This document shows, in pieces, positions 37,788-64,000 of a DNA stretch of 64,000 nucleotides. The translations under genes were made by a program, and so were the position numbers. The stretch is from Tepidanaerobacter syntrophicus (GTDB taxonomy: Bacteria > Bacillota > Thermosediminibacteria > Thermosediminibacterales > Tepidanaerobacteraceae): the NCBI RefSeq assembly GCF_001485475.2, contig NZ_DF976995.1, forward strand, positions 62,001 to 126,000, given 5' to 3'. Under the pieces are notes generated by a model that ran no database searches, was not told where the DNA came from, and worked only from the letters and a program-made list of their open reading frames with translations. The stretch's first letter is position 1, and each line of letters opens with the position of its first letter.

Positions 37788-38200
37788 ATGGATTATCTAA
37801 AAAGAGCAATGGAAATAAAAGAAGAAATAATTGCAAATCGCAGGTATTTACATCAAATTCCTGAACTTGGAATGGAACTTCCGAAAACCAGTGCTTTTGT
37901 GGTTGAAAAACTTAAGGAAATGGGCTATGAACCCAAATTGATAAGCGGTTACGGGGTAACGGCTACTGTAGGCAAGAAAACAGATGGCAAAGTAATACTG
38001 CTTCGAGCCGATATGGATGCCCTTCCCATGGAGGAAGAAAGCGGCCTACCATTTGCGGCTCGCGGCAAATGCGCCCATACCTGCGGCCATGATTTACATA
38101 CGGCCATACTTCTCGGTGCGGCTAAGATGCTGAAAGAATCTGAAGAAGAATTAGAGGGCATCGTTAAGCTGGTTTTCCAGCCCGGTGAAGAGCCACCAAC
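37788..38200 (+). pseudogene. M20 amidohydrolase, 5' part, interrupted by the element
   Basis: Metallo-amidohydrolase of the hippurate/indole-acetyl-amino-acid hydrolase group. The first 138 residues are normal: RYLHQIPELGMELPKTSAFV, RADMDALPMEE, the metal motif CAHTCGHDLHTA and KLVFQPGEEPP. Then a TAG stop appears at 38202-38204 inside foreign DNA. The rest of the gene resumes at 63893. The catalytic Glu pair and metal ligands of the second half are cut off, so this piece should be inactive. Confidence 0.95.
38198..38200. other. attL core (shared AAC)
   Basis: AAC at 38198-38200 is shared with AAC at 63892-63894. Joining the left flank up to AAC with the right flank after AAC gives codons CCA CCA ACT CTT GAA GGT, restoring EPPTLEGAK in the amidohydrolase. 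Only three bases are common, as usual for large serine recombinases. Confidence 0.75.
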
Positions 38201-38294
38201 ATAGGTTTTGCTAACAATAAATTTAAGAAGTACTTAAGGGCAATATTGCTTGTAAACGTCGTTAAGGGTTAAGAACATAAATAGTAAATTGAAG

Positions 38295-38330
38295 AGGCCT
38301 TTGGTAATTTCCAAAGGTCTTTTTTATTTT
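38295..38330 (+). terminator. Terminator just inside the left end
   Basis: AGGCCTTTGG (38295-38304) pairs with CCAAAGGTCT (38311-38320), then TTTTTATTTTT. It would stop transcription entering from the amidohydrolase gene. Confidence 0.88.
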
Positions 38331-44372: not shown

Positions 44373-44555
44373 TTGTTTTTCATATTGACGTAAAAAGCTC
44401 ACAAGCGCTGTCTCAAATGGGTATTTGAAACGCTTGGCATTTAATCATAATTGATGACTTACTTCAAGTGGTAAACCACCAATCATTAGCAGTTTAACAA
44501 GCATCTATAAAATTTCAGGAAATACAAGGCTTTTAGGTTTGTAGGCTTTTAATAA

Positions 44556-44780: not shown

Positions 44781-45021
44781 AAGCTTTTTGAGTAGAGTGT
44801 TAGAACCATGACCAAAGCAGACCACCAGATACAAAAGCGGCAATAACCGATGAGAGATTATGTCCTATCGTATCGAATCTCATTCGAGTGCAAGGCGTTT
44901 GCATGACCTCACATTATACAAATTTTTACGTCTTTTAATTTCATCAAATAACAATAATTTTAAACCTGAAAATAGGCGTTATATGAATGTAAAGTAAGTA
45001 AAGAAAAAGGAGGTTTGACAA

Positions 45022-45471: not shown

Positions 45472-46208
45472 GCCAATGGGAAGCTGGGCGTGGCAGGAAG
45501 GTTAGGCGTGGTTGAGCAGTATAGGGCACTTGGCAGGCATAGCAGGCGGGCATAGCAGGCATAGCAGGTGGGCATAGCGGGCAGGTTGTTTAGGTGTAGC
45601 CATTTAGGTGGACTTTGAAGTTTAGCAGTTTAGCCGAAGCTCTCTATTTGAATAAATTGGTAATATGGAAAATTTTGGCACAGCTCCACCGAGCCCTGCT
45701 TTCTCAGGCTCACCCAGTTTCGCAGCATGGGCGGCAGGGCAGTAGGGAGGCATCATCAGTCAAGTGCCATCTGACGATTTGGCGGTTTTGAGGGCTCTGC
45801 CAGTTTTGAGATTTATCAGTTCTGCCTGTTTTACCAGATTTAAAGACTTGGAATCACAGTTAGGTGGGATTTCACCTGCTTTTAGGCTGGCTTTGAGTCG
45901 TTTGGTTTGTGAGGACGACTATCTTTAGATTTACAAGGACGACTATCTTTAAATTTGCTGGTTTTGTGTTTTTATAGTATCGCTATATCACAGGCTTTTA
46001 AGTTTATGCAGAATAACCAAGCAAGTAGTATATCCAGCTTTACAAGATTTAAGTTTACAGAGGTTTAGAAGAATAGTGTGATAAATGAGATTTAATAAAC
46101 TTTAGATTTAAGTGTGATTATCCATTATTTTTGTTGCAATGAACCAGCATAGCTACTTGTAATCAAAATAAATGTGAGTAAAGAGTTTAAATGGAAGGAG
46201 GATGGCTC
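45472..46208. other. G-rich noncoding block with short repeats
   Basis: No credible open frame. 45480-45610 is a G-rich stretch with repeated GGCATAGCAGG-type units. 45690-45760 has C-rich/G-rich complementary segments. GGACGACTATCTTTA occurs at 45913-45927 and again at 45937-45951 (24-bp period). Towards the end CTACTTGT (46153-46160) matches the recurring promoter-like motif and probably serves the gene at 46209. Composition is unlike the rest of the window. Confidence 0.55.
46153..46180 (+). promoter_or_regulatory. Recurring element motif, copy b
   Basis: CTACTTGT followed by AATCAAAATAAA, weaker in the second half than copies a, c and d. Located about 50 bases before the regulator operon at 46209. 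Confidence 0.4.
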
Positions 46209-46649
46209 ATGCCAAGAAAGAAAGCAGGTGAAGCAGTCTTTATTGAAATTGGAAAGCCGCGTGAGCTGACAGATGAGGAAAGAGATAAAGCATACATTGA
46301 AGAGCTTAAAAGAAGTGATGATTTAGAAGCGAACATCGAATTAATCCTAAGGCATTTGGGGCTGTTTACAGGACTTGTAGCCAGGAGAGCATTGAGAGAA
46401 AGATGGCCTATAAGCCGCATAACAAAGTTTTATAACGTGACCGAGGAAGAGGTCCAAGATATGATAGATGCGATGGCTTATGAAAGCTATCGAAAATACA
46501 ATTTACAAAAGGAACTAGGTCTTATCAATGCCGATGAAGACGTTTACGAGCGGATGGCAGACGAAATAGATTTCTTGAGGATTTCGAAAAAGGAATTGCG
46601 TCAAAGAGTTGAGAGATACCTGAAAAAGCATTCGGAAGAAGAGAGGTGA
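46209..46649 (+). CDS. Small putative DNA-binding element protein
   Basis: 146 residues from ATG 46209 (AAGGAGG upstream; ATG 46191 would overlap that site). Charged and helical. The segment RALRERWPISRITKFYNVTEEEVQDMIDAMAYESY looks like a helix-turn-helix. The C-terminus is a charged helix. It ends four bases before the sigma-like gene, so the two form a regulatory operon; it may be a partner of that protein. Confidence 0.68.
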   Translation: MPRKKAGEAVFIEIGKPRELTDEERDKAYIEELKRSDDLEANIELILRHLGLFTGLVARRALRERWPISRITKFYNVTEEEVQDMIDAMAYESYRKYNLQKELGLINADEDVYERMADEIDFLRISKKELRQRVERYLKKHSEEER

Positions 46650-46653
46650 AGGT

Positions 46654-47346
46654 GTGATAAAACCTATTATATTTGAAGGAGATGACTCCTCTTATGGCTG
46701 GGATAAACTAACAATAAGCTTTGCATTCGAAAATAAGCCCAAGTTGTTAGCATTGATAAACAAAGAGCTTATGAAATACGGATTAGCTGGCAGAATAGAG
46801 GCTTTAGAGGTTTATCAGGAGCTTTTATTATATCTTGCAAGTACCAAAGATTTTGATGCCACTCGTGGAAGAGGGAATCTGGAAAGTTATGTTGTGGTTT
46901 GCCTTAAGAACATTGTGAAAAGGGCGGTATCATCTTATTATAAATACGTTAGCCAGTTGGTTTACGACACGGTGTGTGATGATGAGGAATTATCAGCTAT
47001 CGATCTGATGCCAGATGATGGGAAAATGCCAGATTACATAGATATAGAGGACGAGGTTAGAAGTGCAGAATGTTTGAGGTATAAGTACGGTGTAGACATA
47101 CCATTACTAGTTTACTTGAGGTTTTTATGCGATGACGATGAGACTTATAGGGGATTGGTTGAGCTGTTATTGGGGATTAAATACGTCTCGGAATTTAGGG
47201 CATTGGAGAAGAAGGTGAGGCAAGATGAGGTGTTTATAGCGTTTATAAGTGCATTAAGCAGTTTGGATAAACAAGACGCCTTGAAAGCACTGAAGAAGAT
47301 AGTTTATGGTGCGGAGAGCATAGAAAGGGCATTGCAAGGTCATTAG
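46654..47346 (+). CDS. Sigma-70-region-2-like regulator
   Basis: 230 residues, start GTG 46654. Residues 45-95 (RIEALEVYQELLLYLASTKDFDATRGRGNLESYVVVCLKNIVKRAVSSYYKY) follow the pattern of sigma region 2, including the FDxxRG-xxx-Y turn and the basic helix that melts the -10 element. An acidic linker (DDEELSAIDLMPDDGKMPDYIDIEDE) follows. A clear region 4 is not visible; the C-terminal half is helical. It could be an element-encoded sigma factor that drives the surface-protein operons just downstream. The assignment is by pattern only. Confidence 0.6.
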   Translation: MIKPIIFEGDDSSYGWDKLTISFAFENKPKLLALINKELMKYGLAGRIEALEVYQELLLYLASTKDFDATRGRGNLESYVVVCLKNIVKRAVSSYYKYVSQLVYDTVCDDEELSAIDLMPDDGKMPDYIDIEDEVRSAECLRYKYGVDIPLLVYLRFLCDDDETYRGLVELLLGIKYVSEFRALEKKVRQDEVFIAFISALSSLDKQDALKALKKIVYGAESIERALQGH

Positions 47347-47766
47347 GTTCACAGGTTTTCTGGAAACATCTGGGAGGTCAAATTTGGGTTTCAAGAGGGT
47401 TTTTATGGGGTTAAGGGTTATTCTATTAGGGTGGTTCGAAAAGAGGCTGTAAAAGGGATTTTTGCAAGTTTCAGAAGGTTTTATTAGGAGGCGGTAGTGG
47501 TTGTGGAAAGTAGTTTAAAGAGGGTTTATTTGATGATTGTTAGAGGTTTTGGCGGGTCTAAAATTTGCACGCTTCAAGCCAATAGGCTTTTGTCCATTTT
47601 ACACCTTCCCTCATTGGGGACTGCAAATTAAATTTGCAGTCCTTTTCTTTTTGTTTGAAGGCGTGCCAAAGTATTTCGGAGACTTCAAATAAGCGTAAGG
47701 TTTAACAGGAAAGCTTTAAGGGATTTGCAGGTAAGCATAAAATTTTTGGTTTATCTACCGAGAAAT
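47347..47766. other. Noncoding gap with terminator
   Basis: About 420 bases, G-rich in its first half (runs such as GAGGGTTTTTATGGGG), with no credible gene. A near-perfect palindromic terminator occupies 47618-47655: GGACTGCAAATT/AATTTGCAGTCC then TTTTCTTTTT. It should end the regulator transcript before the surface operon promoter. Confidence 0.6.
47618..47655. terminator. Terminator before the surface operon
   Basis: 12-bp perfect stem GGACTGCAAATT/AATTTGCAGTCC with a single-base centre, followed by a T-rich tail. Confidence 0.9.
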
Positions 47767-47791
47767 CTACTTGTTAAAAAGTATAAAGTAG
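47767..47791 (+). promoter_or_regulatory. Recurring element motif, copy c, before surface operon 1
   Basis: CTACTTGTT, then AAAAAGTATA, closed by AAGTAG, so CTACTT and AAGTAG form an inverted repeat about a 13-base centre. Lies about 30 bases ahead of the first ribosome site. Could be a -35/-10 pair for a dedicated sigma factor or an operator. Confidence 0.6.
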
Positions 47792-47867
47792 AAAATTTAA
47801 GGGGGAAGGAGGTGTTTTTATGGGTTATCTCAACCTTACAAATACTACAAGGAAAGGAGATATGTTT

Positions 47868-48416
47868 ATGCGTAGGAGATTTTTATCCCTCATTTTGGTT
47901 TTGACCTTAGCCCTTGCAGGTTTGCCGTCTGTAGCAAGTGCAGAAAGTACCGATGGAGCAACTGTAACCATTGAAGGAACGATAAATCCTGCGACAGTTA
48001 CCATTTCAGCTCCTTTAACGGTTAGTTTTAGCATTGACCCTAACGCAGAAGAGAGCCAAAGGTTCGTGTCAGCTCCTTTTACAGTCATTAATAACTCCAA
48101 TGCTCCAGTAATTGTGAAGATGAATCGTATAAGAAAAACTCAAACAGGCACTATGACGGTAGTAGCTCCTGATGAATATCAAAACTGGTCAGACCTTAGC
48201 AGTGCAGAGTCCGAAACTAAAATAGCATTAGGTATAAACGATGGGACGAAGGACATCTGGTCACCTGCAGAAGAAAACTCTGTAGATAACGCTGAAGGGA
48301 CTCAGTTTATCGGTAACGAAAGTAAGGAGTTTCACTTAATCGCCAAGCATGGTTTAGCGTTCTCTAAGGCTTTTGTAACAACATTTGAGTTGATACTGTC
48401 TTGTGAACTCTACTAA
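47868..48416 (+). CDS. Secreted beta-rich protein, candidate fibre or layer subunit
   Basis: 182 residues. Signal peptide RRRFLSLILVLTLALAGLPSVASA, then a single domain of about 150 residues: TVTISAPLTVSFSIDPN...FTVINNSNAPVIVKMNRI ... KHGLAFSKAFVTTFELILSCELY. The same domain ends the LRR protein at 49000. It is alternately hydrophobic, as in a beta sandwich. ATG 47868 has AAAGGAG upstream; ATG 47820, also with a good site, would add 16 residues before the signal peptide. No sortase or LPxTG motif. Confidence 0.82.
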   Translation: MRRRFLSLILVLTLALAGLPSVASAESTDGATVTIEGTINPATVTISAPLTVSFSIDPNAEESQRFVSAPFTVINNSNAPVIVKMNRIRKTQTGTMTVVAPDEYQNWSDLSSAESETKIALGINDGTKDIWSPAEENSVDNAEGTQFIGNESKEFHLIAKHGLAFSKAFVTTFELILSCELY

Positions 48417-48421
48417 TAGGG

Positions 48422-48460
48422 TGAGGCTTAGCATCCTTTAAGGGGTGCCAAGCCCCCTAA
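48422..48460 (+). other. Intercistronic hairpin
   Basis: GAGGCTTAGCATCC pairs, with one mismatch and one wobble, with GGGTGCCAAGCC. It lies directly after the small secreted gene and lacks a T run, so it may protect that mRNA or partly reduce downstream expression. Confidence 0.6.
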
Positions 48461-48481
48461 CTTAAGAGAGGAGGGTAATCA

Positions 48482-48985
48482 ATGAAAGACAAGAAAATTA
48501 GGTTTATTGTAGTTTTACTGTTGATTTTGGCCGTAGGCATAGCGGGCTATATGCTTTATAAGCATAAAAACGTTCAAGAGCAGGTGCCGCAAGCTCCGGT
48601 TTTTGGGGAAGGAGAGTTAAAAGATGGGTATATACCCCACATGCCTGTTGAGGACAGGGAGCGCTTAGCCAAGCAGAAGATGGATGCAACCATGTTTACC
48701 TCATCGGCAGATGCGGCAGGCTATGTAAAGAATGGTTTAGACGTAAGTTATAATATTTCGAACGTGCCACAAAACAAATTTCCGTTTTATTTCACGGTTA
48801 GCGTTGATGGAAAGGAATACTATAGGTCGCCGCTAATACCGCCTGGAAAGAGGATGGACAGCTTTAAGTTGGAGGAACCCTTAAAGCCTGGAGTTTACAG
48901 GGCTTCAGTTATGTTGAATGTCTTGGATGAAAACAATAATCCGGTTGGAGCACGTGAGTTAATCATCAAATTAGTTTCCGAGTAA
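48482..48985 (+). CDS. Membrane-anchored surface protein of the operon
   Basis: 167 residues. One N-terminal membrane helix (RFIVVLLLILAVGIAGYML) followed by KHKN, so the rest is outside the cell. The outer part (NGLDVSYNISNVPQNKFPFYFTVSVDGKEYYRSPLIPPGKRMDSFKLEEPLKPGVYRASVMLNVLD) reads as an Ig-like beta domain. Lies between the two genes sharing the beta-rich domain, suggesting an anchor or assembly role. GAGGAGGG upstream. Confidence 0.78.
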   Translation: MKDKKIRFIVVLLLILAVGIAGYMLYKHKNVQEQVPQAPVFGEGELKDGYIPHMPVEDRERLAKQKMDATMFTSSADAAGYVKNGLDVSYNISNVPQNKFPFYFTVSVDGKEYYRSPLIPPGKRMDSFKLEEPLKPGVYRASVMLNVLDENNNPVGARELIIKLVSE

Positions 48986-48999
48986 AGGAGGAAAAGAGC

Positions 49000-51531
49000 A
49001 TGAAAAGAAAGGCTTTATCGGTTTTGCTTGTTTTGGCGTTAGTAATTGGTTCAATGACAGTTAATGTAGACAGGGTTTATGCGGAGATTTCAGTTGATGG
49101 GAATTGGGAATACGAGGTTGTAAATGGTGAAGCATATATTACAGGATATATGGGTATGGCAGGTGAGACATTTATAGTACCTTCTGAAATCGACGGCATT
49201 CCAGTTAGAGGTATACTGTGGTTTAGGTGGTTTGACTCATGGAAGGAAAATGTAAAGACTGTAATTATTTCTGAAGGTATTAAGGAGATAGGACGACCAG
49301 GATCTAGTTCGACACCTTTTGGCGGTTGGACAAATTTGGAGAATGTAGTAATACCAAGTTCTGTTGAATATATTGGGGGCTGGGCATTTCAAGGTTGTGT
49401 TAGTCTAACTAATATAAACCTTCCAGGTGTAGTAGAGATATCAGGTGGTGCATTTGAAGATTGTACCTCGTTGCAAACAGTAAGCTTATCAAGCGCAATA
49501 AGAAGTATTGGGTCTTCGGCTTTTGAGGGTTGCAGTAATTTGCAAAATATAACGCTACCTGAAGGTTTAGAGGAGATAGGCGCTCGGGCATTTAAGGATT
49601 GTACTTCATTAGTGTCAGTAGTCATACCAAGTACAGTCAGTTATATAGGTTCTGGGGCTTTTGCAACATGTAACAATCTAACAGAAATTACCGTTTTAAA
49701 TCCTAATACTACGATTTATAATGATTCATCTACATTCCCTTCGCAAGCAGTTATAGTCGGCTATGACCCATCAACAGCAAAGGAATATGCTGTGCAATTT
49801 GGTAGAACATTCAGAGTTTACGGGAGCAGTTCAGGTGGGGAAGAACCGCCAGGTGGGGAAGAACCGCCAAGCGGTGAAGAACCTCCAAGTGGTGAAGATT
49901 TGATTGAGGGTGATTGGCAATACCGAGTGGAGAATGGAGAAGCAATAATAACGATATATTTCGGACCTGGCGGTGAAGTAGTGATACCTTCAACGTTAGG
50001 TGGATACCCTGTAAAAGAAATTGCAATGATTGGACTAATGCATCAAGGAGAAATAAAGAGCATTGTTATTCCTGAAGGAGTAGAACGTATAGGGGATTTT
50101 GCTTTCAACATGCTTTATTATATGGAGAGTATTGTGATACCTAATACAGTCAGGGAGATTGGGTATAATGCCTTCGACGAGTGCTATAGTCTTAAAAGCG
50201 TAAGCCTCCCTGAGGGACTCACAGTTATTAGTTCGAGCTTGTTTGAAGGTTGTACATCTTTACAAAGCGTGTATATTCCGAGTTCAGTCACAACTATCCA
50301 TGGCAGTGCTTTCCGTGGGTGTAGCAGTTTAACAGGTGTAAATATCCCGAATAACGTTACTTATATAGGCAGTAACGCATTCGAGGGGTGTACCAGCTTA
50401 ACGGAAATAGTAATACCGAGCAGCGTTACAACTATCGGGTACGATGTATTTAAAGGATGCACAGGGTTGACAAGCATTACATTTGAAAATGCGTATACAA
50501 ACATTGGTAATAGTCCAGATACCATTCCTGCAGGAGCAGTAATCAAGGGTTATACAGGGTCTACAGCGGAACAATATGCTAATACTTATGGAAGGACATT
50601 TATAGCTATAGACCAACCTCCAAGTCAACCACCTCTAAACTTCACTTACACGATTGAGAATGGTGAAGTTACCATTACAGGCTATATTGACTCTGACGAT
50701 AGTGTGGTAAATATTCCTGAATCCATAGAAGGTTATCCCGTAACTAAGATAGATACCTATGCTTTTGTTGGGTGTAGAGCAACCACCATCAATTTACCGA
50801 GTACGTTGGAGATTATAGACTTTGGTGCATTTGATTATTGTCGAAATTTAACTAGCATAACGATACCGAGCAGCGTGGTCACGATTAAGGACTATGCATT
50901 TAACGCATGTGAAAGTTTAACCGAAGTCATCATACTAAATCCAAATGCTTACATTGGTGATTGTGCCGAGACTTTCCCAGAACAAGCAAAGATTGTGGGC
51001 TATGACCCCTCAACTGCTAAGGACTATGCCATTAAATATGGTAGGACATTCGAAGTTTACGGTGGAGGACAGTCCGGTGGGGAAGAAGACACAGGAGATG
51101 GGAGTAATATTCAAATAATAGGTGAGGTAGGAGCCAGTACGATAACAATTACCGCACCTTTGGTGGTATCGTTCAGCATAGACCCTAATAATAAAGAGCG
51201 TCCTCTTGTAACTGAGGACTTGGTCTTAACAAATAATGGTAATGCATCAGTTAATGTTTATGTGAAATCCGTTGAGAGTCAGGATATGCAAATAATTCCA
51301 AGTGATTCATACACGGTAGATGGTTGGAAGCGTTTAAGTAAGTTTGAAACCGAGCGGAAGCTAGCATTATTACTAGGCGGTAAAGACCTTGCAAATGCGG
51401 ATAACTTATTTTTGGTAACTTTGAAAGGTAAAGAGACCAAGTCATTACCGGTTGACGTAAAACACGGTTTGGCATTTCCAATGGCTAAATCGTGTTCGAT
51501 ACAGGTAGTACTTAGTTATAGCTTAAATTAG
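49000..51531 (+). CDS. Secreted BspA-type leucine-rich-repeat protein
   Basis: 843 residues. Signal peptide about 1-28. Three LRR_5 blocks (for example SSAFEGCSNLQNITLPEGLEEIGARAFKDC), each opened by a short beta module (GNWEYEVVNGEAYITGYMG; GDWQYRVENGEAIITIY; FTYTIENGEVTITGYID). A GGEEPPGGEEPPSGEEPP linker lies near residue 280. The last 140 residues repeat the beta-rich domain of the 47868 protein (ITITAPLVVSFSIDPNN ... KHGLAFPMAKSCSIQVVLSYSLN). BspA-like proteins bind host or extracellular partners. Likely a surface adhesin held by its C-terminal domain. Confidence 0.92.
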   Translation: MKRKALSVLLVLALVIGSMTVNVDRVYAEISVDGNWEYEVVNGEAYITGYMGMAGETFIVPSEIDGIPVRGILWFRWFDSWKENVKTVIISEGIKEIGRPGSSSTPFGGWTNLENVVIPSSVEYIGGWAFQGCVSLTNINLPGVVEISGGAFEDCTSLQTVSLSSAIRSIGSSAFEGCSNLQNITLPEGLEEIGARAFKDCTSLVSVVIPSTVSYIGSGAFATCNNLTEITVLNPNTTIYNDSSTFPSQAVIVGYDPSTAKEYAVQFGRTFRVYGSSSGGEEPPGGEEPPSGEEPPSGEDLIEGDWQYRVENGEAIITIYFGPGGEVVIPSTLGGYPVKEIAMIGLMHQGEIKSIVIPEGVERIGDFAFNMLYYMESIVIPNTVREIGYNAFDECYSLKSVSLPEGLTVISSSLFEGCTSLQSVYIPSSVTTIHGSAFRGCSSLTGVNIPNNVTYIGSNAFEGCTSLTEIVIPSSVTTIGYDVFKGCTGLTSITFENAYTNIGNSPDTIPAGAVIKGYTGSTAEQYANTYGRTFIAIDQPPSQPPLNFTYTIENGEVTITGYIDSDDSVVNIPESIEGYPVTKIDTYAFVGCRATTINLPSTLEIIDFGAFDYCRNLTSITIPSSVVTIKDYAFNACESLTEVIILNPNAYIGDCAETFPEQAKIVGYDPSTAKDYAIKYGRTFEVYGGGQSGGEEDTGDGSNIQIIGEVGASTITITAPLVVSFSIDPNNKERPLVTEDLVLTNNGNASVNVYVKSVESQDMQIIPSDSYTVDGWKRLSKFETERKLALLLGGKDLANADNLFLVTLKGKETKSLPVDVKHGLAFPMAKSCSIQVVLSYSLN

Positions 51532-51555
51532 TTTATAAGGTGCATATAAAAAGTA

Positions 51556-51600
51556 TATGCCTCTCTCTAAGAAATTGAGGGAGGCATAAATTTTTTATTT
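51556..51600 (+). terminator. Terminator of surface operon 1
   Basis: TATGCCTCTCTC (51556-51567) pairs with GAGGGAGGCATA (51577-51588) with one wobble, followed by TTTTTTATTTTTT. Confidence 0.9.
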
Positions 51601-51615
51601 TTTGTACCTGAAAAA

Positions 51616-51640
51616 CTACTTGTTTGTAAATAAAGTATAG
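51616..51640 (+). promoter_or_regulatory. Recurring element motif, copy d, before surface operon 2
   Basis: CTACTTGTTT at 51616 and AAAGTATAG ending at 51640, about 25 bases before the next ribosome site. Same arrangement as copy c, with the two halves a few bases further apart. Confidence 0.55.
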
Positions 51641-51669
51641 AAAAAGGAATTAAAGGGAGGATGATTTTC

Positions 51670-51984
51670 ATGACCAGAACCGAAGTGTTAAGGAAAATTA
51701 AAGAAAAACAGCGTGAGGTGGCAATTCAAGTTGCCCAAGAAGCTTTAAAAGAGCTTGGAATTGAGCCAGGCAAGCTTAGTGTTGATGAGACGTCGTCAAA
51801 TGTTAGGAGGGACGTAAGCGATTACGAAATAGGACTATTATATTTTCTTGGCTACAGTACTTATAGGATTGCATCAAGGTTGGGTTTATCCGCTGCTGGA
51901 GTTAAGTACCGCCTAGAGAAGATGGGAATATATGAGTATGCGAACGATTTGACAATGTATATCAATGGAAATACAGTGGAATAA
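51670..51984 (+). CDS. Small helix-turn-helix element protein
   Basis: 104 residues. N-terminal charged helix, then a helix-turn-helix (SDYEIGLLYFLGYSTYRIASRLGLSAAGVKYRLEKMGIYEY). ATG 51670 is chosen; ATG 51661 touches the GGGAGG site. First gene of the long surface operon 2, so it may be its regulator. Confidence 0.75.
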   Translation: MTRTEVLRKIKEKQREVAIQVAQEALKELGIEPGKLSVDETSSNVRRDVSDYEIGLLYFLGYSTYRIASRLGLSAAGVKYRLEKMGIYEYANDLTMYINGNTVE

Positions 51985-51995
51985 GGAGAGTGACT

Positions 51996-52547
51996 ATGAG
52001 TAGTATAAAAGAGGCATTCATAGAGAAGATAAAATACTTACGAAGTTTGGAACGGACGATAGTAGGAAATGGTGTCATCATTGGCAATGGAGACACCAGG
52101 ATATATTACGATTTTATAACAGGTAGGGTTCCAACAGTTATCTATAATAGGACTTGGGGTTGGAAGATAAGGAATGATAATAGTGAGCATATTGAAAAAG
52201 GTTACTTTAGGAGAAGTGTTCCAGGCATAAATATGAAAGTTTTGAGTCATCATGTAGCTTGTGTAGCTCTAGGATTATTCGATGATGACAATAATTTGGG
52301 TCTTGTAGTAAATCATAAAAATTACAATAAGCTAGATAATCGACCTCATAATCTGGAATTATGCACACCAAGAGAAAACAGATACCATGAAGAACTGAGA
52401 AGAACTCTCATAAAACACGGCGTTTGGAGGGATGGATTGGCTTTCGAGGCGAAGTTTGCAAGGCAAGCAATACTTGAGTCAAAAGGAGATACCTTAACTT
52501 TGTTAAGGATGGTCGACAATTATTTGAGAAGTCACGGATATTTCTAA
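51996..52547 (+). CDS. HNH endonuclease, copy 1
   Basis: 183 residues. The HNH_3-type core is HHVACVALGLFDDDNNLGLVVNHKNYNKLDNRPHNLELCTPRENRYHEE, with the central NHKN, a paired Asn (NRPHNLE) and a final His. The N-terminal 70 residues are a strand-rich recognition part. ATG 51996 has AAGGAGAG upstream. A paralogue is at 53806. Free-standing HNH genes between structural genes behave as homing endonucleases in phages. Confidence 0.85.
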   Translation: MSSIKEAFIEKIKYLRSLERTIVGNGVIIGNGDTRIYYDFITGRVPTVIYNRTWGWKIRNDNSEHIEKGYFRRSVPGINMKVLSHHVACVALGLFDDDNNLGLVVNHKNYNKLDNRPHNLELCTPRENRYHEELRRTLIKHGVWRDGLAFEAKFARQAILESKGDTLTLLRMVDNYLRSHGYF

Positions 52548-52573
52548 ATATTAACGTAAAGGAGTGGATTTGT

Positions 52574-53788
52574 ATGAGCAGGAAGGTAACTTTACTTGTA
52601 AGTTTATTGGTCGTTTTAGCATTTGTGTTTTCAACAGTTCCCACAAATGGAGTGGCTATGGGAAGTGGAGTTGTACCTGAAGGATTTACTCCAATATACA
52701 CGGTAGAAGATTTGAACAGCATTAGGGATAATCCTGTCGTGCCTGAAGGATTTACTCCAATCTACAGTGTAGAAGATTTAAACAGCATCAGGAATAATCC
52801 TTATGGGCAGTACATCTTAATGAACGACATAGACTTATCAGGATATGACTGGGAGCCAATCGATTATTACAATGAAGAGACAGGTGAGCATGAGCCATTT
52901 TACGGTGTATTTGACGGTAATGGACATAAAATAAAGAACTTGAGAATTAACAAACCTGACGAAGATATGGTAGGTTTGTTTGCATGTATAGGAAATCGCA
53001 ATGGGCCTGCAGTAATTAAAAATTTAATTTTAGAAAACGTTGATATAGTAGGAAGACATTCGGTAGGAGGGCTTGTTGGTAAAAACGCTTCAGGATATAT
53101 AGAAAATGTAAAGGTCATTGGTAATATAAAAGGCGATACATGCGTAGGGGGAATTGTGGGGACGGATATAGGAATTATAAGAAATTGCCATACCGATGGA
53201 GTAATAACTGGTAACGATTATACTAGTGAGATAGTAGGACATGGTATTCCAGGACCAAGCATTGAAGGTTGCAGTTCCACAGCAATAGTAAACGGGAAAA
53301 CAGGAACTTTAACAGGGGGTTATGAAAAATATGGTACAACTTTTAATGGTGCTAGCGACTGGTATGGTTTTTGGGTTAGCTTCAAATATGATAAAGTAGA
53401 AATTTACGATTATACGGGAACTCCAGATAGAGAACATGTTGTAATTCCATCACACATTTTTGGCTGGCCTGTGACTGAGTTACATGGTGCGTTTAGTTGT
53501 GCTGAATATGTTAAGTCGGTTGTAATACCGGATACAGTTGAGAGATTGATAAATGCATTTGATTATTGTAGGAATCTACACACAGTGGTCGTGCCAGAGT
53601 CAGTAAAGTTAGTACAAGGGTCTTTTGGGACTAATACTAGAGAAGGACTTGGTGTCAAGGAGGTTATTTTTGAAGGTATGGATACGGAGATAGACGGAAT
53701 AGGTGACGTTTTGATTAAATGTAAGGCGGGCTCCAAAGCGCATGAATATGCGTTAAAATTTAATAAAGAATATGTTTTAATACCTTAA
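52574..53788 (+). CDS. Secreted GLUG/LRR protein with an N-terminal tandem duplication
   Basis: 404 residues. Signal peptide about 1-30. Residues 33-76 are two copies of a 22-residue unit (VVPEGFTPIYTVEDLNSIRD), encoded by a 66-bp duplication at 52670-52801. Then DIDLSGYDWEPI and GLUG-type repeats (VGGLVGKNASGYIENVKVIG; GGIVGTDIGIIRNCHTDG), and a short LRR_5-like end. Typical of extracellular adhesion or matrix proteins. GGAG upstream of the ATG. Confidence 0.85.
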   Translation: MSRKVTLLVSLLVVLAFVFSTVPTNGVAMGSGVVPEGFTPIYTVEDLNSIRDNPVVPEGFTPIYSVEDLNSIRNNPYGQYILMNDIDLSGYDWEPIDYYNEETGEHEPFYGVFDGNGHKIKNLRINKPDEDMVGLFACIGNRNGPAVIKNLILENVDIVGRHSVGGLVGKNASGYIENVKVIGNIKGDTCVGGIVGTDIGIIRNCHTDGVITGNDYTSEIVGHGIPGPSIEGCSSTAIVNGKTGTLTGGYEKYGTTFNGASDWYGFWVSFKYDKVEIYDYTGTPDREHVVIPSHIFGWPVTELHGAFSCAEYVKSVVIPDTVERLINAFDYCRNLHTVVVPESVKLVQGSFGTNTREGLGVKEVIFEGMDTEIDGIGDVLIKCKAGSKAHEYALKFNKEYVLIP

Positions 53789-53805
53789 GCAAGGAGGGGT
53801 TTACT

Positions 53806-54600
53806 ATGAATAAGAGAAGCTTAGAGGCTATAATGAGACGTGTGGTGAAATTAAGAAGCGTCAAAAGGTATTATGTGGACCGTATAATAAGATGTGGTAT
53901 TGGAGGTGGGGGTGCTCTTGCGGGCGATTTTATTGTAATAAGGGACGTGAAAGATTTTTCGAAAGAGTCTTATTTAAAAGATAGGAGAGACCAATTAGGT
54001 TATGTGTATGACTTAAATAATGGTTTAATACAATTTAGTCACAAAAGAAGGTATTTAATGGACGGAGATGCTCCTTTTGGTTGGGAAGAGGTTGCGCCAC
54101 GTATTTGTATTATAGGTCCAGAAAATCACAACAAAGAAAAAATAAAGCCCTTTATATTTGGGGATGGCGAGATTCCGGAACAATATATAGCTGCTGTGGC
54201 GTTAGGGTTTTATGACGACGACAATAATTTGGGATTGGTTGTCAATCATAAAAATTGGTGCAAAGATGATAATAGACCAGATAATTTAGAGCTTTGTACG
54301 TTAGATGAACAAAGATGCCATGAAGTTACAAAACAAATACTAGAAAAATATGGATTATTTGAACCGTGGATGGCGTTAAATGCTTTTATAGCGTATAACA
54401 TAGTCATGTCTGCTAAAGGAAATAAAGATTTGTTCGTAAATGAAGTGATGAGGGCAATTTATGCTTATCCTAAAATAGGCGTGGTATATACTCCCATACC
54501 ACGATATGAAGTCATGCCTATAGATTTCGGGAAAGATTTTGAAGAAGCATTCCAAGAGGCGAACAGGAAAGATTGGAATTATCGCCCACGGATGATTTAG
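53806..54600 (+). CDS. HNH endonuclease, copy 2
   Basis: 264 residues, paralogue of the 51996 protein: AAVALGFYDDDNNLGLVVNHKNWCKDDNRPDNLELCTLDEQRCHEV keeps all HNH residues. The N-terminal half is longer and different, so the DNA target is probably different. AAGGAGGGG upstream. It follows another exoprotein gene, repeating the pattern exoprotein-HNH. Confidence 0.84.
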   Translation: MNKRSLEAIMRRVVKLRSVKRYYVDRIIRCGIGGGGALAGDFIVIRDVKDFSKESYLKDRRDQLGYVYDLNNGLIQFSHKRRYLMDGDAPFGWEEVAPRICIIGPENHNKEKIKPFIFGDGEIPEQYIAAVALGFYDDDNNLGLVVNHKNWCKDDNRPDNLELCTLDEQRCHEVTKQILEKYGLFEPWMALNAFIAYNIVMSAKGNKDLFVNEVMRAIYAYPKIGVVYTPIPRYEVMPIDFGKDFEEAFQEANRKDWNYRPRMI

Positions 54601-54638
54601 AGAACATGAATTTAGAACAATCAAAGGAGGAGTTTACT

Positions 54639-55943
54639 ATGGATAAAAAGTTTTTAACTTTTAAGAAAATTGTTATACCGTTTTTAACAGCAATTATGCT
54701 TTTAATGCAGGTCAATATGGCATTTGCAGCGGATGTAAAGAACGTTTCGCAAGTAGCAGATAGCAAAATAGTTGTTGTAAGTCAAGTGGGTGGAGTCCTT
54801 GAAGAAGCGATGAAGAAAGGATTGGAACAACAAGCTAAATATGATGAGAAGTATTATGCAAAATTAGCGGAAGCTAAAGCGAAAGAGGTAGACTACAATT
54901 TCAACGATGTCCACCTAAACGATTGGTTTTATTACGATGTAATGAAAGCGCGTGAATTGGGTCTTATTGCCGGTGTTGGAAATAACCTCTATGCTCCAAA
55001 TAAGACAATCACTTATGCAGAATTCATCACTATTTTGGTGAGAGTGTTACATGTGGATGTAAGTAAATACGAAAAAGGCAAGCATTGGGCATCGCAAAAT
55101 ATCGAAGCGGCTAAGGACTTAGGCATTATTCAGGGGTTCGAAATCCTTAATATTGATGCGGGAATACCGAGAGAAGATATGGCGAAGTTCGTTTGCAGGG
55201 CTTTAGGTTTACAGCCTGTTAATGATGGTGAGGTCATCTTTGCTGATGTCGGGAAAAATGTAAGTGTAGAGGACAGAGCATATGTAAATACAGCGTTTAA
55301 GGAGTACCTGATTGAAGGTATAGGGCGTAGCAAACAAGGAGAGCGTTTATTTGGATATGGTCAAACCGTTAATCGTGCACAGCTGGCAACAATGGCTTTA
55401 AGGATTAAGGCTTATAAAGAGGATAAAGAAGCCTACAAACAGGAAAGAGCCGCATTAAGACAGCAGGAAGAGCTTATAGCCAAGGCCAATTTGACTTGGG
55501 AAGAGCTCGGCAAAAAGGGAGGTATAGTTAGCGAGAGTCAATTGACGCCTGAAATTATCGAGAAGATAAAGAGTATACCGACAGCTGATTATAGCGGGGT
55601 GCCTCATAAGATAGGGGACAATGATTTCTTTGAGTGGGGTAATCCTCCTGGAGATAAGGAAAATAGCGATTGGATTGGAGCTATTAAGCGGGCTTTTCCT
55701 GGTAAGACGGTTGTAACTTGTAAGGAGTTATGCTTTGGAGATGCGTCTAATTATACGTATTATTACAGAGTGATAGTTGACGGTAAGCAGTTATGGAGGG
55801 TAGATGTCGGTTATGGAACCAATGGAAAGCCAGACGTAGGTGAAGGCTTATTTGAGGACGACAATATCTTTGATAATAAGTACGACCCTTACGGTTACGA
55901 TATGATATGGCCAAAAGAGGGGGTTTATAGGTATGAAAAATAA
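54639..55943 (+). CDS. S-layer-homology (SLH) surface protein 2
   Basis: 434 residues from ATG 54639 (AAAGGAGGAG upstream; an in-frame TTG at 54573 overlaps the HNH gene). Signal peptide KIVIPFLTAIMLLMQVNMAFA. SLH repeats (FNDVHLNDWFYYDVMKARELGLIAGVGNNLYAPNKTITYAEFITILVRVL and FGYGQTVNRAQLATMALRIKAYKEDKEAYKQ) closely match SLH protein 1. The C-terminal 140 residues are unique. Anchors to the cell wall. It overlaps the next gene by 11 bases. Confidence 0.92.
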   Translation: MDKKFLTFKKIVIPFLTAIMLLMQVNMAFAADVKNVSQVADSKIVVVSQVGGVLEEAMKKGLEQQAKYDEKYYAKLAEAKAKEVDYNFNDVHLNDWFYYDVMKARELGLIAGVGNNLYAPNKTITYAEFITILVRVLHVDVSKYEKGKHWASQNIEAAKDLGIIQGFEILNIDAGIPREDMAKFVCRALGLQPVNDGEVIFADVGKNVSVEDRAYVNTAFKEYLIEGIGRSKQGERLFGYGQTVNRAQLATMALRIKAYKEDKEAYKQERAALRQQEELIAKANLTWEELGKKGGIVSESQLTPEIIEKIKSIPTADYSGVPHKIGDNDFFEWGNPPGDKENSDWIGAIKRAFPGKTVVTCKELCFGDASNYTYYYRVIVDGKQLWRVDVGYGTNGKPDVGEGLFEDDNIFDNKYDPYGYDMIWPKEGVYRYEK

Positions 55944-58920
55944 AATCATTGCATTGGCAGTGATGGTAGCATTTGTATTTTCCATTTTACCAGTAAAATA
56001 CGTTTATGCGGCTAACAAGCCGCTATTTCCATTTAATGTGGGAGAAATAACAGTTAATTGTCGTGGGCAAAGACCTATTAATGATGAGGATAGACCTGTA
56101 ATTAGGAGAGATGAGAACGGTAGATTAACACGATTAACACTTTGCGAACAATCCACCTATCAAGATAAACTACCCAATCATTATTATTACCGAACAGTCG
56201 GCTATATTATGGCGTTATTAAAAGAACCAAACGTAAAAGATGAAAGTATAATCACATCCAGCTATTACGATAACAATACTTTACGTTTAGAAGAAAATAG
56301 AAGGATGCGCGAGTTAATCAAAGAAACACCAGGATATGACTTTGGAAAACCTTATGTAACGTCTTATACCTTTTCACGTCAATTTTTTGACAATCTTTCT
56401 GGTAAAGACGTCGTAGACAAGGCAGATTGGCTTTTAAGGATAGGTTTAGTACAGTTTTATAAGACCGACAGTGAAGGTAATGAAGGGCCAGCATTGGGAA
56501 GTATGTATGCAGTTCATGAGGATATATTCAAAGACGTTACTCTTGCAATGCAGGACATGATAGCATATGGATTTGTCGTAGATGGTGCCTTTTATCCTTA
56601 TATTGATGATTTTGTGACAAGAACCAAATATATCAATTTACACACAGGTGAAGAACTTCCAGTTTTTAAGTTTAAGCAGGTCGACATAGTAGAAGATGAA
56701 GAAGGCAATATAGTAGATGTAAATATAAGTGATGCAGAATTAAAAGACAATAAAATTTTAATAAAGCCTTATGAAGGGGCCACAATGAAGGAATGGGTCC
56801 TTGTAAAAAATCCACCAGAGCCTATAAGTAACAATATCACCTGGAAAGACGCATCAAATTTACCTGGAAAAGTCCAAGCAGGAGGCCCAAAGGAAACACC
56901 TGAGATTACGTATTTAGCGAGTCATACAGTGTTTGTGAGATATACTTTAGGAGATAATGACGTAGACCAGCCAGGAGGTCAAATTGGCGGCTCCGAACAA
57001 GACATAAAAGGCGATTTAGTTTTATCGGAGAAGCGTATAACGAAGGTGTTCAACCTATCTCAGTTGGGACCCTTACCTAACCTGAAATTCACTTACCCAA
57101 CGGCGGGCGAGCATATGCATATAGACGCTGATGGAAATGTATACTATGTTGAGCGCAGTAAACCTATAGATAACATATATAAATACATTATAGAGCATAG
57201 CAATAACTTGAACAATTTGGCAGTAGCGATAAAAGGGGACAGGTTCACCACAAGGTTTAACGGCACAAACATTAAAGCAGGCACGGCTAAATGGTCTGGA
57301 GGTTCAGATACCGTAACGCCAAACCTATATTTCATGGTGTGGCGTGGAAAGGACATGCCTACACTAGCATCCTATAAAGAGCCTGCAAATCATCCATTAT
57401 TAGCTTTAGGATTAAAGCGAGGGCACGTGCCTCAGAATGATAGGAACTCAGCCGGCGGGTATCAAGACAGCTTAACATCGGACTCAAATCCTTTGGTGTT
57501 GGATAAGTCAAGCAATGGGGATTACAGCACAACATTTGCATGCTTGCAGTGTGGAAACAGTAAAACACAGACACATAGTATAAGGAATAAAGCAGCATAT
57601 AAGGCAACCATAGGCGTTCAGTCATTCATAGGAAGTCCGAATACAGGTAACGCTGTACCTGCAGACAGCACAGGTGGGTTTACTGCACGTGGTGTAACCT
57701 TCAACAAGGCAGCTGGGTTCGCGATACCTCATAGCACAATGATTAAATTCTATCCGTATGTACAGATGGGATATGACATCTTCAATGAGTCCGGAGACAA
57801 TGCAGGTTATACTACAATGGGAGTAAACGTGCTAGCACAGCATGTATCAGCCATAAAAGTTAACGATTACGTTGAGGTAGGTTGGTATAACCCAAATCCT
57901 TCAACGAGTTTAATAATCAATTCCAATCAGTGGTCAACTTATGTAAGAGCTGTCGAGGCATTTGGTAAAAACAGCGTTTTACCCGGTGGAGCCTTATATA
58001 GCTTAACAACAGGCAATAGCCCAACTAAAGTTGGCATTAGAACATGGCAGGTATACGTGCCCGATGACTTAAGGCAATATTTGGTAGAAGGACGGGAGTT
58101 TAGTTATGACAGAGCATTAAAGGCAGACAATGACTTTGCGGCTCAAGTGAAGAACACGTTAGATACATTGGATGTAGTTCAATACGTAAGTAACAATCCG
58201 AAAGCAGATAACGCTTTCGGAGGAGTAGAGATATTAGCAAAAGGCGGACAAAATGTTTACGGGAACACCACTTCAAGTTATGACAAGTACTGGCTGAAAC
58301 GTGGAACACCTCAAAACAGTAATTATGCCAATGAAGCCGATTTAGATGTGCTGGATGAGGATAAGGCGGTTACGTATTACAGAGTTAGGGCGGATGTTAA
58401 CGGTAATGTTTATATAGAGAAAAGCACTAATGGAAGTAGCTGGACGACATTAGATAAATTGAGCAAGACTGAAGGAGTTGGCGCATTGACAAACGCAGAA
58501 GCTAAAGGTTTAGATGAAAGAACCAAAATAATAACCAATTTCGTTCTTGCGTTAGACAGGAATAAAGGCAATGACCCATCAGTTTCAAATGGGCCAGGCT
58601 GGTACAACGAGGCATGGGATGGTATCTACGTTATGAGAGTAGACCGGGTATTCACAATAGGCTTTGGGTCACCGAAGGTAAGGAGCGTAGCACTTGACCC
58701 GAAATTGACACCACCTTCAGCAAGTATGGGTGATATATTTACACGGTATTACCTGAGCCAATTCAAGGTTAACGAGAAGTCTTATATCAGGGCAAACAAA
58801 CCGAACGGATATGTCGGGACGTTTAATGGTAGAGACGTGATACTGCCGAATATGGATTACATGTTTGTAAGTCGTAAGTTTTATATACCAAATGCGAACG
58901 TCATGGACCAAAAATACTAA
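55933..58920 (+). CDS. Large secreted protein, unknown family
   Basis: 995 residues, the largest element product. Signal peptide KIIALAVMVAFVFSILPVKYVYA. Long strand-rich body with a single Cys-x-x-Cys pair (FACLQCGNS near residue 535), which could bind metal. No LRR, SLH or catalytic motif is recognised and there is no C-terminal anchor. Translational coupling to SLH protein 2 suggests that the two assemble on the surface, the SLH protein serving as the wall tether. Confidence 0.85.
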   Translation: MKNKIIALAVMVAFVFSILPVKYVYAANKPLFPFNVGEITVNCRGQRPINDEDRPVIRRDENGRLTRLTLCEQSTYQDKLPNHYYYRTVGYIMALLKEPNVKDESIITSSYYDNNTLRLEENRRMRELIKETPGYDFGKPYVTSYTFSRQFFDNLSGKDVVDKADWLLRIGLVQFYKTDSEGNEGPALGSMYAVHEDIFKDVTLAMQDMIAYGFVVDGAFYPYIDDFVTRTKYINLHTGEELPVFKFKQVDIVEDEEGNIVDVNISDAELKDNKILIKPYEGATMKEWVLVKNPPEPISNNITWKDASNLPGKVQAGGPKETPEITYLASHTVFVRYTLGDNDVDQPGGQIGGSEQDIKGDLVLSEKRITKVFNLSQLGPLPNLKFTYPTAGEHMHIDADGNVYYVERSKPIDNIYKYIIEHSNNLNNLAVAIKGDRFTTRFNGTNIKAGTAKWSGGSDTVTPNLYFMVWRGKDMPTLASYKEPANHPLLALGLKRGHVPQNDRNSAGGYQDSLTSDSNPLVLDKSSNGDYSTTFACLQCGNSKTQTHSIRNKAAYKATIGVQSFIGSPNTGNAVPADSTGGFTARGVTFNKAAGFAIPHSTMIKFYPYVQMGYDIFNESGDNAGYTTMGVNVLAQHVSAIKVNDYVEVGWYNPNPSTSLIINSNQWSTYVRAVEAFGKNSVLPGGALYSLTTGNSPTKVGIRTWQVYVPDDLRQYLVEGREFSYDRALKADNDFAAQVKNTLDTLDVVQYVSNNPKADNAFGGVEILAKGGQNVYGNTTSSYDKYWLKRGTPQNSNYANEADLDVLDEDKAVTYYRVRADVNGNVYIEKSTNGSSWTTLDKLSKTEGVGALTNAEAKGLDERTKIITNFVLALDRNKGNDPSVSNGPGWYNEAWDGIYVMRVDRVFTIGFGSPKVRSVALDPKLTPPSASMGDIFTRYYLSQFKVNEKSYIRANKPNGYVGTFNGRDVILPNMDYMFVSRKFYIPNANVMDQKY

Positions 58921-59192: not shown

Positions 59193-60047
59193 TTAAAGCA
59201 GTTCCATTTTTGCCTTCAATTCTTGCAATGAGGTTTTTATATAAATTTGAGTCGTGGTTATTCTGGAATGACCAGCAAGGGCAGCCACTTCAACTATGTT
59301 AAAGCCTTTCTCTAGAGCGTTTTTACAAAAATAATGACGTAATTGGTGTGGGCTCACAGGTTCGATTTTAGCCAAGTGGCAGTAGTGTTTTATCATCTTA
59401 AATACGGTAGACCTATTTAATTTTCCTCGCTCGCCTATAAACAGATAGTCTAAATCGCTGTATTTGTATCTTGGTCTGGTAGAGAGCCAGTTATTTAAAG
59501 CTTCTTTAACGGTGTTATTTAGTGGAATAGCTCTTTGCTTGTGGCCTTTGCCGAATCGGATGATTAGAGTGTCTTTGATAATATCATTAAGTCTCAAGTT
59601 TACAAGTTCCGAGGTACGGATTCCAGTGTAGGCTAACGTATAAAAAATAGCAATATCCCTTGAGATTCCAAAATGGGCAATAGCTTCCTCAAGTCGGCGG
59701 AAGCTTTTAGTATCAAGTTTACAAGGCGAAATAACAGATTCCTGGACTTTAATAAAAAAGTCGTCGCTAACTGGATTAGACATTAAAATTCCTTTTTCAA
59801 TAAGAAAATTACAGTAGGATTTGATAGCTGACAGGTAATTGTTAATGGTTTTTGCATTTAATTTTTTAATTGTCATTAGATAGCTTTTGAAATTACGTAT
59901 GTGCAAAGGTAGAATCTTATTGTCGAAATCACGACCATATGTCTGGACATACCATTGGATAAAAGCCTCAATTTTTTGAGCGTATAAATTAATAGTACTT
60001 TGAGAGTAGGGAGAATTTTTCAAACTGAAAATATACTGGTTAAGAAT
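59193..60047 (-). CDS. Tyrosine recombinase (XerC/D-like integrase)
   Basis: Phage-integrase family. N-terminal core-binding SAM-like domain (PYSQSTINLYAQKIEAFIQWYVQ) and catalytic residues Arg in YTGIRTSELVNLRL, Lys in FGKGHKQRAIPL, HxxR in HQLRHYF, His in LAGHSRI and Tyr in TTQIYIK. GGAGGTGA (60061-60054) is followed six bases on by an in-frame ATT (60047-60045), and the eight extra residues (LNQYIFS) fit the family. The first standard codon is TTG 60023, too far from the site. It is the only reverse-strand gene of the element. Confidence 0.92.
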   Translation of the reverse strand: MLNQYIFSLKNSPYSQSTINLYAQKIEAFIQWYVQTYGRDFDNKILPLHIRNFKSYLMTIKKLNAKTINNYLSAIKSYCNFLIEKGILMSNPVSDDFFIKVQESVISPCKLDTKSFRRLEEAIAHFGISRDIAIFYTLAYTGIRTSELVNLRLNDIIKDTLIIRFGKGHKQRAIPLNNTVKEALNNWLSTRPRYKYSDLDYLFIGERGKLNRSTVFKMIKHYCHLAKIEPVSPHQLRHYFCKNALEKGFNIVEVAALAGHSRITTTQIYIKTSLQELKAKMELL

Positions 60048-62175: not shown

Positions 62176-63900
62176 ATGGAAAAAAAGAGAGTCGTATGCT
62201 TATATAGAGTATCTACGAAGATGCAGGTAGACCCGACTGGCGATATATCAATGCAGGAAAAAGCTTGCAGAGAATTTATAGCTCAAAGACCTGATTGGGA
62301 GTTTTTATACGATTATAGTGAGAAAGGAATATCTGGTTTTACTAAATCAGTTGATGAAAGAGAAATTTTACAGAAAATAAAAGAAGATGCATATAATAAA
62401 AAATTTGATGTTCTGTTAGTATTTATGTTTGACCGAATAGGCAGGAGAGAAATAGAAACTCTTTTGTTCGTAGAAGAGCTGACAAAGCTTGGCATAGAGA
62501 TTTGGTCGGCACAAGAAAAAGAACAATTAGATTTAATGAATCCCGAAGCGAGGTTGATTAGTTTTATCAAATATTGGAAGGCAGGTAGCGAAAGCAGTCA
62601 AACCTCAATGAGAGTGGCCGAAAAACATAGGCAGATGACTTTAGAAGGTCTATATCGGGGCGGGGAACCGCCTTATGGTTATAGGCTTGTGGATTCAGGT
62701 ATTGTAAATAAAAAAGGTAAACTTATAAAGAAATTAGCAATTAACGAAAAAGAAGTTGAGGTCGTTAAATTAATTTATGATTTAGCTTTAAACTATGGAA
62801 TGGGTGGGCATAGAATAGCAAAGTATTTGAATGAACACGGGATAAAACCTAGAAAGGGAGACGAGTGGAATTCAGCAGTAATTAATTATATGCTTAGGAA
62901 TCCAATTTATAAAGGCCACCTAACCTCTGGAAAAACAAAAAGAAAAGGAAGTAAGCATCGCAGGGTAAGTCCAAAGGAATGGGTTTTATCTGAAAAACCT
63001 TTGGAAGAGCTTATAATAATTCCTGAAGACATTTGGAATCAGGTGCAGCTCGTGAGAAATTCAAGGACTCCAGAAAAATATAGATTAGACAATTTAGATT
63101 ATAGCCAATACCCTCTGCAAACAAAGAGCCCATTATTGTTTACAGGATTTATATATTGTGGGAGCTGTGGCTCAAAATTATCAACGGGGTATGTTAAGCA
63201 TGAATGGACCACGAAGGATGGAAAGACTCATAAAAAATCACGGAACGTTTACAAATGTATAAGAAAGACGTCGGGCGGTACCAAATGTACCGGTAGGAGC
63301 ATCTATTATCCGGAGATGATTGAGGAGCCAGTAATGGATGAGATTTACAAGTACCTGGATACTTTGAAGGACTTAGATTTGTCCCAGGAGATTGATAGGA
63401 TTTCCAAGCAAAACTTACAAAGTAGCGAAAAACGCATCAAAGAGTTAAAAGAGACAATTGCGAAGAACGAAAAGTACCTCGCAGTGTTGAAAGAGGAGGT
63501 ACCAAAAAGCATTCTTGGGGAGAGCCAATTTTCGCCAGAAATACTTAATGAGTCCATTCGAGATACGGCTGATAAACTTGAAAAAGCATATAAAGAACTT
63601 GAGGAGGCTCAGAAAGAATATGAAAGATACAAATTAGAACTGGACGACATAATAAAAATGCAGAAAACAGTACCTTACTGGCGGGAGGAGCTCGAGAAGG
63701 CTCCAACCGAAGTTAAAAAGATGATTTTAAGTGAAATAATAGACAAGGTTGTTGTTTACAGCAATAAAGGAGAAAAAAATTGCTCAATAGAAATAGAATT
63801 GAACATAGAAATTGAGGCGTTTTTAAGACTCGCTGATGGAAGGAATAGAGAACCAAACGATTTACATGAGCAAAATATACTCAAACGTCGAAACTCTTGA
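62176..63900 (+). CDS. Large serine recombinase (element integrase)
   Basis: 574 residues from ATG 62176 (ATAGGAGGC upstream; ATG 62155 lies before that site). Resolvase domain with catalytic Ser in CLYRVSTKMQ and the Arg motif FDRIGRRE, a recombinase domain (GGEPPYGYRLV, MLRNPIYKGHL), a zinc ribbon (CGSCGSKL ... CIRKTSGGTKCTG) and a long coiled coil. Its last codons CGA AAC TCT TGA cross the right junction, so the final Ser and stop come from host DNA. Integrates and excises the element. Confidence 0.96.
   Translation: MEKKRVVCLYRVSTKMQVDPTGDISMQEKACREFIAQRPDWEFLYDYSEKGISGFTKSVDEREILQKIKEDAYNKKFDVLLVFMFDRIGRREIETLLFVEELTKLGIEIWSAQEKEQLDLMNPEARLISFIKYWKAGSESSQTSMRVAEKHRQMTLEGLYRGGEPPYGYRLVDSGIVNKKGKLIKKLAINEKEVEVVKLIYDLALNYGMGGHRIAKYLNEHGIKPRKGDEWNSAVINYMLRNPIYKGHLTSGKTKRKGSKHRRVSPKEWVLSEKPLEELIIIPEDIWNQVQLVRNSRTPEKYRLDNLDYSQYPLQTKSPLLFTGFIYCGSCGSKLSTGYVKHEWTTKDGKTHKKSRNVYKCIRKTSGGTKCTGRSIYYPEMIEEPVMDEIYKYLDTLKDLDLSQEIDRISKQNLQSSEKRIKELKETIAKNEKYLAVLKEEVPKSILGESQFSPEILNESIRDTADKLEKAYKELEEAQKEYERYKLELDDIIKMQKTVPYWREELEKAPTEVKKMILSEIIDKVVVYSNKGEKNCSIEIELNIEIEAFLRLADGRNREPNDLHEQNILKRRNS
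63892..63894. other. attR core (shared AAC)
   Basis: Second copy of the AAC core, inside the last codons of the recombinase gene. Everything from 63895 onward is amidohydrolase sequence in the restored frame. Confidence 0.75.
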
Positions 63901-64000
63901 AGGTGCAAAAGCCTTAATTAGAGATGGCATTCTCGAAAATCCAAAAGTAGATGCAGCAATGGCTGCCCATGTAATACCACTTCTGCCAACTGGATTTATA
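63893..64000 (+). pseudogene. M20 amidohydrolase, continuation after the element (window ends inside)
   Basis: 36 codons in frame: TLEGAKALIRDG, ILENPKVDAAM, AAHVIPLLPTGFI. This matches the segment that follows FQPGEE in M20 amidohydrolases, including the metal-ligand His of AAHV. The reading frame is the one expected from the left part at 37788, so the two halves were one gene. Confidence 0.93.

Follow-up and report, generated by a model that had tools for sequence, protein, structure and literature searches.

Serine integrases act in one direction only unless a directionality factor is present, and they have found wide use in genome engineering. The attP half-sites of these enzymes are 25 bp long with a central dinucleotide (PMC3783163). 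In the Myxococcus phage Mx8, attP lies inside int and integration gives the gene a new 3' end; the prophage integrase is reported to be still active, with altered specificity (PMC6070905). Archaeal integrases of the SSV1/pTN3 type also have attP inside the integrase gene, which is disrupted by integration (PMC5495485). In the integration-dependent immunity of mycobacteriophages, attP is located near the 3' end of the repressor gene, and the C-termini of the phage and prophage forms differ (PMC8092301, PMC9934374). For the int genes of SPbeta and LI/A118, we found no report of an internal attP in the literature examined. The principle is already known from Mx8; for a serine integrase, we found no example in the open-access literature searched.

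Here we describe a 64,000-nucleotide stretch of Tepidanaerobacter syntrophicus DNA (assembly GCF_001485475.2, contig NZ_DF976995.1, positions 62,001 to 126,000), referred to below as the window, whose own coordinates are used throughout. In the reconstruction presented below, integration exchanges the last 26 amino acids of a large serine recombinase for two host-encoded ones.

An element within an M20 amidohydrolase gene

An element of ~25.7 kb (38192-63889 plus the GA core) interrupts an M20 amidohydrolase gene at its conserved PGEE codons. The gene is uninterrupted in two other genomes of the same genus, G011 and G012 (97% and 96% protein identity). The frame of the host 5' fragment reads into the element to a TAG at 38204, and the insertion should inactivate the amidohydrolase. 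No close relatives of the whole element were found among 26 genomes of the same class, nor by single-protein scans. The interval from 41534 to 58920 carries exported-looking genes, including those for an SLH-domain protein, a BspA-type leucine-rich repeat protein and a GLUG-motif protein, as well as a gene for a 995-aa protein without a Pfam match; no phage structural genes were recognised among the genes of this interval scanned with Pfam or PHROGs. A second recombinase, of the tyrosine type, is encoded on the minus strand at 59193-60023, ~2 kb upstream of the serine recombinase.

The large serine recombinase is found at the right end of the element, where its integrated frame spans 62176-63900 on the plus strand. 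Its ATG at 62176 is preceded by an AGGAGG-type ribosome site, and an alternative in-frame ATG is present at 62155. The protein has the expected domains of a large serine recombinase, comprising a Resolvase catalytic domain (PF00239), a Recombinase domain (PF07508), a zinc ribbon (Zn_ribbon_recom, PF13408) and a coiled coil, the latter modelled as long helices at residues 403-446 and 454-508, and all conserved domains are kept in one frame in the integrated form. It matches the PHROGs integrase family phrog_95 at 3.5e-96 and was the sole match in a search of its own genome at E 0.001. The element would be integrated into the PGEE codons by this enzyme.

The crossover and attP

The empty site in G011 and G012 (loci L002 and L003) reads CCTGGCGAAGAAACACTTGAAGG, and the uninterrupted amidohydrolase genes of these two genomes show it as GGCGAAGAAACACTTGAAGG. 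Host sequence extends through ...GAAGA at the left junction and resumes from GAAAC... at the right junction, the two overlapping solely in GA. Because the empty sites leave just this dinucleotide common to both junctions, we assign the crossover to GA. The first bases belonging to the element itself are GCCACCAACATAGG, and the joined circular junction would read CTCAAACGTC-GA-GCCACCAACATAGG.

A perfect 7-bp inverted repeat is centred on GA and occupies positions 15-21 of each attP arm, where serine integrases contact attP, and the arms match at 8/12 positions in the zinc-domain interval (12-24; p=0.0017 by shuffling). The arms agree with the published 25-bp half-sites (PMC3783163), and the locus has the short shared core, central dinucleotide and pseudo-palindromic attP of ~50 bp that characterise serine-recombinase att sites. 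The features of the locus are collected in Table 1.

Table 1. Coordinates of the recombinase gene, att sites and host fragments in the window
Feature	Position	Strand	Basis
Host M20 amidohydrolase 5' fragment	37788..38191	+	Pfam Peptidase_M20; intact orthologue in L002/L003
attL core dinucleotide GA (crossover)	38190..38191	+	Empty-site comparison; attP symmetry centre
P' arm of attP, TTTTGCT block, coding in the circular form	38192..38216	+	Inverted repeat about GA
Severed recombinase 3' end: 26 codons (ATNIGFANNKFKKYLRAILLVNVVKG) and TAA at 38270-38272	38192..38272	+	In-frame joining at GA
Intrinsic terminator, 14-bp stem and T run	38291..38324	+	z -3.2
Large serine recombinase, element-borne part up to the crossover	62176..63891	+	Pfam; phrog_95
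P arm of attP, within recombinase coding sequence, AGCAAAA block	63865..63889	+	Inverted repeat in phase with GA
attR core dinucleotide GA (crossover)	63890..63891	+	Empty-site comparison; attP symmetry centre
Host M20 amidohydrolase 3' fragment (extends past the window end)	63890..64000	+	
Final two codons (AAC TCT) and TGA stop of the integrated recombinase, contributed by the host	63892..63900	+	Frame; empty sites L002/L003

Two ends of one recombinase gene

In the integrated state the gene ends ...CTC AAA CGT CGA AAC TCT TGA (LKRR-NS stop), encoding 574 aa. In the reconstructed circle the frame continues as ...CTC AAA CGT CGA GCC ACC AAC ATA GGT ... GGT TAA (LKRR-ATNIGFANNKFKKYLRAILLVNVVKG stop), encoding 598 aa. 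attP thus lies within the integrase gene on the Mx8-like principle, and the prophage gene gains a new 3' end. A strong intrinsic terminator begins 18 bases past the TAA of the circular-form gene and would stop the int transcript in the circular form. On the simplest reading, the recombinase gene would natively end at 38192-38324, a stretch that integration splits off from the rest. The chance of 26 open codons in the window tail alone is ~0.09, which is unremarkable; the significance of the tail comes from the TAA-plus-terminator arrangement and from the relatives, not from its length alone.

The first-pass annotation had proposed that the recombinase frame reads across attR and is terminated by a host stop codon. 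This is what we find, except that the host contributes two residues (N and S) and not one. Its suggestion that the circular frame continues past the junction into the element's left end was likewise borne out, the frame stopping at the TAA at 38270-38272. Mapping the crossover to GA still alters the end of the recombinase, and the idea that integration edits the integrase C-terminus survives; the edit is evident from the sequence itself and is seen again in relatives, several of the near ones examined for the same overlap likewise running through attR.

The exchanged residues are located ~20 residues past the last conserved strand, in predicted disorder, and the integrated form is modelled as disordered throughout after residue 546, the tail and linker being low-confidence parts of the structure models.

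Relatives sharing the layout

A wider scan for the recombinase yielded 79 genome-contig loci and 33 viral-contig loci. The layout was found with both ends located in two relatives, G640 (Geobacillus, tRNA-Ala) and G232 (a Clostridia MAG, radC). The G640 element is 51.9 kb long; in the integrated state its recombinase frame crosses the tRNA in antisense orientation and continues for 48 codons, and in its circular form the frame is open for 19 codons beyond the core. The G232 recombinase is 39% identical and its frame enters radC (RadC match from profile position 53); the other radC half and the left end of the element are on a separate contig, and joining at GTCCA gives 21 more codons. The tRNA-linked loci of G388, G628, G645, G681 and G699, whose left-end junctions are decayed or unclear, were left out. 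Small recombinase loci between tRNA fragments occur in the related genomes G388, G485 and G628 (L009, L029 and L030) and may be minimal or domesticated elements; in G388 and G628 an entire tRNA-Val(gac) lies ~0.2 kb upstream.

Many of the clade's recombinases seem to run into recognisable host sequence, as judged from endings read by eye without empty-site mapping. By this means tRNA halves were seen at the recombinase ends of L081, L093, L028, L087, L083, L091, L075 and L099. A peptidoglycan-binding protein gene is present at the end of L076 and L098 by Pfam, and was assigned to L077-L080, L090 and L109 from their similar ends. The recombinases of L070, L074 and L122 end in a common gene with a DTLDYKG motif; Pfam gave no match for the host fragment behind L070 and L122, which is deacetylase-like by eye.

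Elsewhere among the relatives (L016-L020; L095-L121) the gene ends at a stop of its own ahead of att, and the overlap is therefore not required for function. On the tree the read-through rows cluster, with 2 state changes against a shuffled mean of 10.2, and the own-stop clade L095-L121 is nested inside them, which argues that the overlap is old and changeable. In the nearest relative, L068 (52%), the stop precedes a GGGGGAG core; beyond the stop, a different frame encodes a tail-like peptide, SFVTNKTFEFMVWTEII, as though the tail had been lost through a frameshift.

Putative uncut forms and the circular tail

In the viral contigs L147/L148/L152, L149, L151, L153 and L159, the recombinase frame passes through a GGGAG core flanked by symmetric arms and stays open for another 20-33 codons. 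A complete tRNA follows the stop in L147/L148/L152, as at the G640 left end; the L149 frame ends just within such a tRNA. Judged on arm symmetry and the neighbouring tRNA, not on circular contigs, these five relatives look like uncut attP forms. A second viral-contig scan gave no further attP forms.

The tRNA-targeting relatives carry their own complete tRNA near attP, at the far end: downstream of the recombinase in L147/L148/L152 and L149, and as a tRNA-Ala (ggc) at the G640 left end (49340-49413 of the joined region). It presumably replaces the disrupted host tRNA. In L147 and L159 the first ORF beyond attP specifies a small, free-standing protein that contains a zinc ribbon like that of recombinases (L147, MLFSSLIRCQSCNHTYKG...; L159, MSKPKKLFYKLIQCECGNNYRYQKD...VDKIYISKEEIRVEYK), which could be a directionality factor or a decoy.

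Together with the three rebuilt circles (window, G232 and G640), the five viral forms make eight independent circular or attP forms. All eight are open for 19-33 codons past the core, against 3/16 of the other two frames reaching 19, a contrast (Fisher exact 165/735471, ~2e-4) that is inflated, as some forms were noticed by their long tails.

Relatives that stop before att end in CKIIENTIYL-like peptides, and MAFFT aligned this tail motif unaided. We built a motif matrix from these relatives, with positions hand-anchored in the training set. Taken together, the circular tails matched it (combined p 8e-5), and eleven integrated tails failed to do so (p 0.90). Most of the group signal comes from L147/L152; individual values are 0.06-0.09 for G640, G232, L149 and L153, and about 0.15-0.18 for L151 and L159. 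The window's own tail did not match the matrix (p 0.52), and pairwise comparison with the other tails gave no match that survived correction. In an AlphaFold model of L152, the motif forms a strand at residues 567-575 (low confidence) past a disordered linker. These comparisons indicate that in this recombinase family the circular tail is a genuinely coding part of the protein, which leaves room for a regulatory role.

A possible role for the tail

We favour, at a probability of roughly 0.6, a reading in which attP lies inside the 3' end of int, the tail is functional before integration, and the prophage enzyme is tuned by losing it. In the circular form the gene would be complete, with 26 further codons, a TAA and a terminator, and integration would move the severed tail to the opposite end of the element, leaving the recombinase to end two codons into the host. 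Across the relatives, the att core falls in the flexible linker after the zinc-ribbon/coiled-coil region, with a short tail encoded beyond it. The tail would be a functional part of the full-length enzyme, related full-length forms having a short strand there, and by analogy with the integration-changed Mx8 integrase its removal would most likely lower unscheduled recombination. Since its catalytic and DNA-binding domains are intact, the prophage enzyme is expected to retain att-site binding and, given a directionality factor, to be able to excise the element; with the coiled-coil part also unchanged, an altered degree of activity is expected, not a dead enzyme. As the first-pass annotation proposed, the tail swap may alter activity or stability.

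More tentatively, and here we lean against the proposal, a large clade of Bacillota and phage serine integrases may have a conserved post-core tail that yields two isoforms, loss of the tail helping to lock integration or to set dependence on the directionality factor. If true, an enzyme changed by integration would constitute a second layer of control in a clade. Any int gene of this clade that was cloned or annotated from a prophage would then be the cut form, and the phage form would need rebuilding from both element ends to assay the natural integration enzyme.

A serious rival, to which we give a little less than an even chance, is that the overlap is neutral: linkage of att to int is favoured, the disordered linker accepts any ending, and both forms behave alike. 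The junction does fall within predicted disorder, integrated tails range from 2 residues in the window to ~50 unrelated host-encoded ones, and the window tail on its own lacks conservation and is of a length that chance could supply. Neutrality accounts less readily for circular tails that all stay in frame for 19-33 codons, for a motif that these tails keep as a group and that non-overlap relatives also keep, or for a terminator sited for the circular gene. It is improbable that the circular form instead carries a C-terminal degradation signal lost on integration, a geometry that would resemble integration-dependent immunity, where attP lies in the repressor gene and an ssrA-like tag is often present (PMC8092301): the window tail ends -VVKG, 0/8 circular tails end in an ssrA-like -AA, and integration requires the long form. 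The crossover at AAC with a 23-residue addition, as first annotated, is very unlikely even though AAC is present at both junctions, since the empty sites, which give GA and 26 residues, lack the bases CCACCAAC, which must then belong to the element, and speak against the pre-insertion sequence GAAGAGCCACCAACTCTTGAAGG that it implies, and since an AAC-joined attP has no centre with more than 7 matches in the 12-24 interval against 8 for the GA centre. The shared AAC is a coincidence, element bases 38192-38200 happening to end in AAC.

Comparison with known systems

The closest precedent is Mx8, with which the window element has in common an attP inside the integrase gene and a new 3' end upon integration. 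The Mx8 integrase is a tyrosine recombinase, not a serine recombinase like that of the window, and the functional effect described for it is a measured one. Integration-dependent immunity also has attP in coding sequence near the 3' end and a C-terminus that differs between the two states; there, however, the repressor is cut and the phage form is often ssrA-like tagged, whereas in the window it is the integrase that is cut, without an -AA tag. An attP within the integrase gene is shared with the SSV1/pTN3-type enzymes as well, but these are split by integration into separate non-functional halves, whereas the window recombinase exchanges its C-terminal tail only. The SPbeta and LI/A118 integrases, whose structures are solved, have the same domain order as the window recombinase, which matches the SPbeta integrase by profile (8e-28) and by fold, and their attP sites, with 25-bp half-sites and a central dinucleotide, are like that of the window (PMC3783163).
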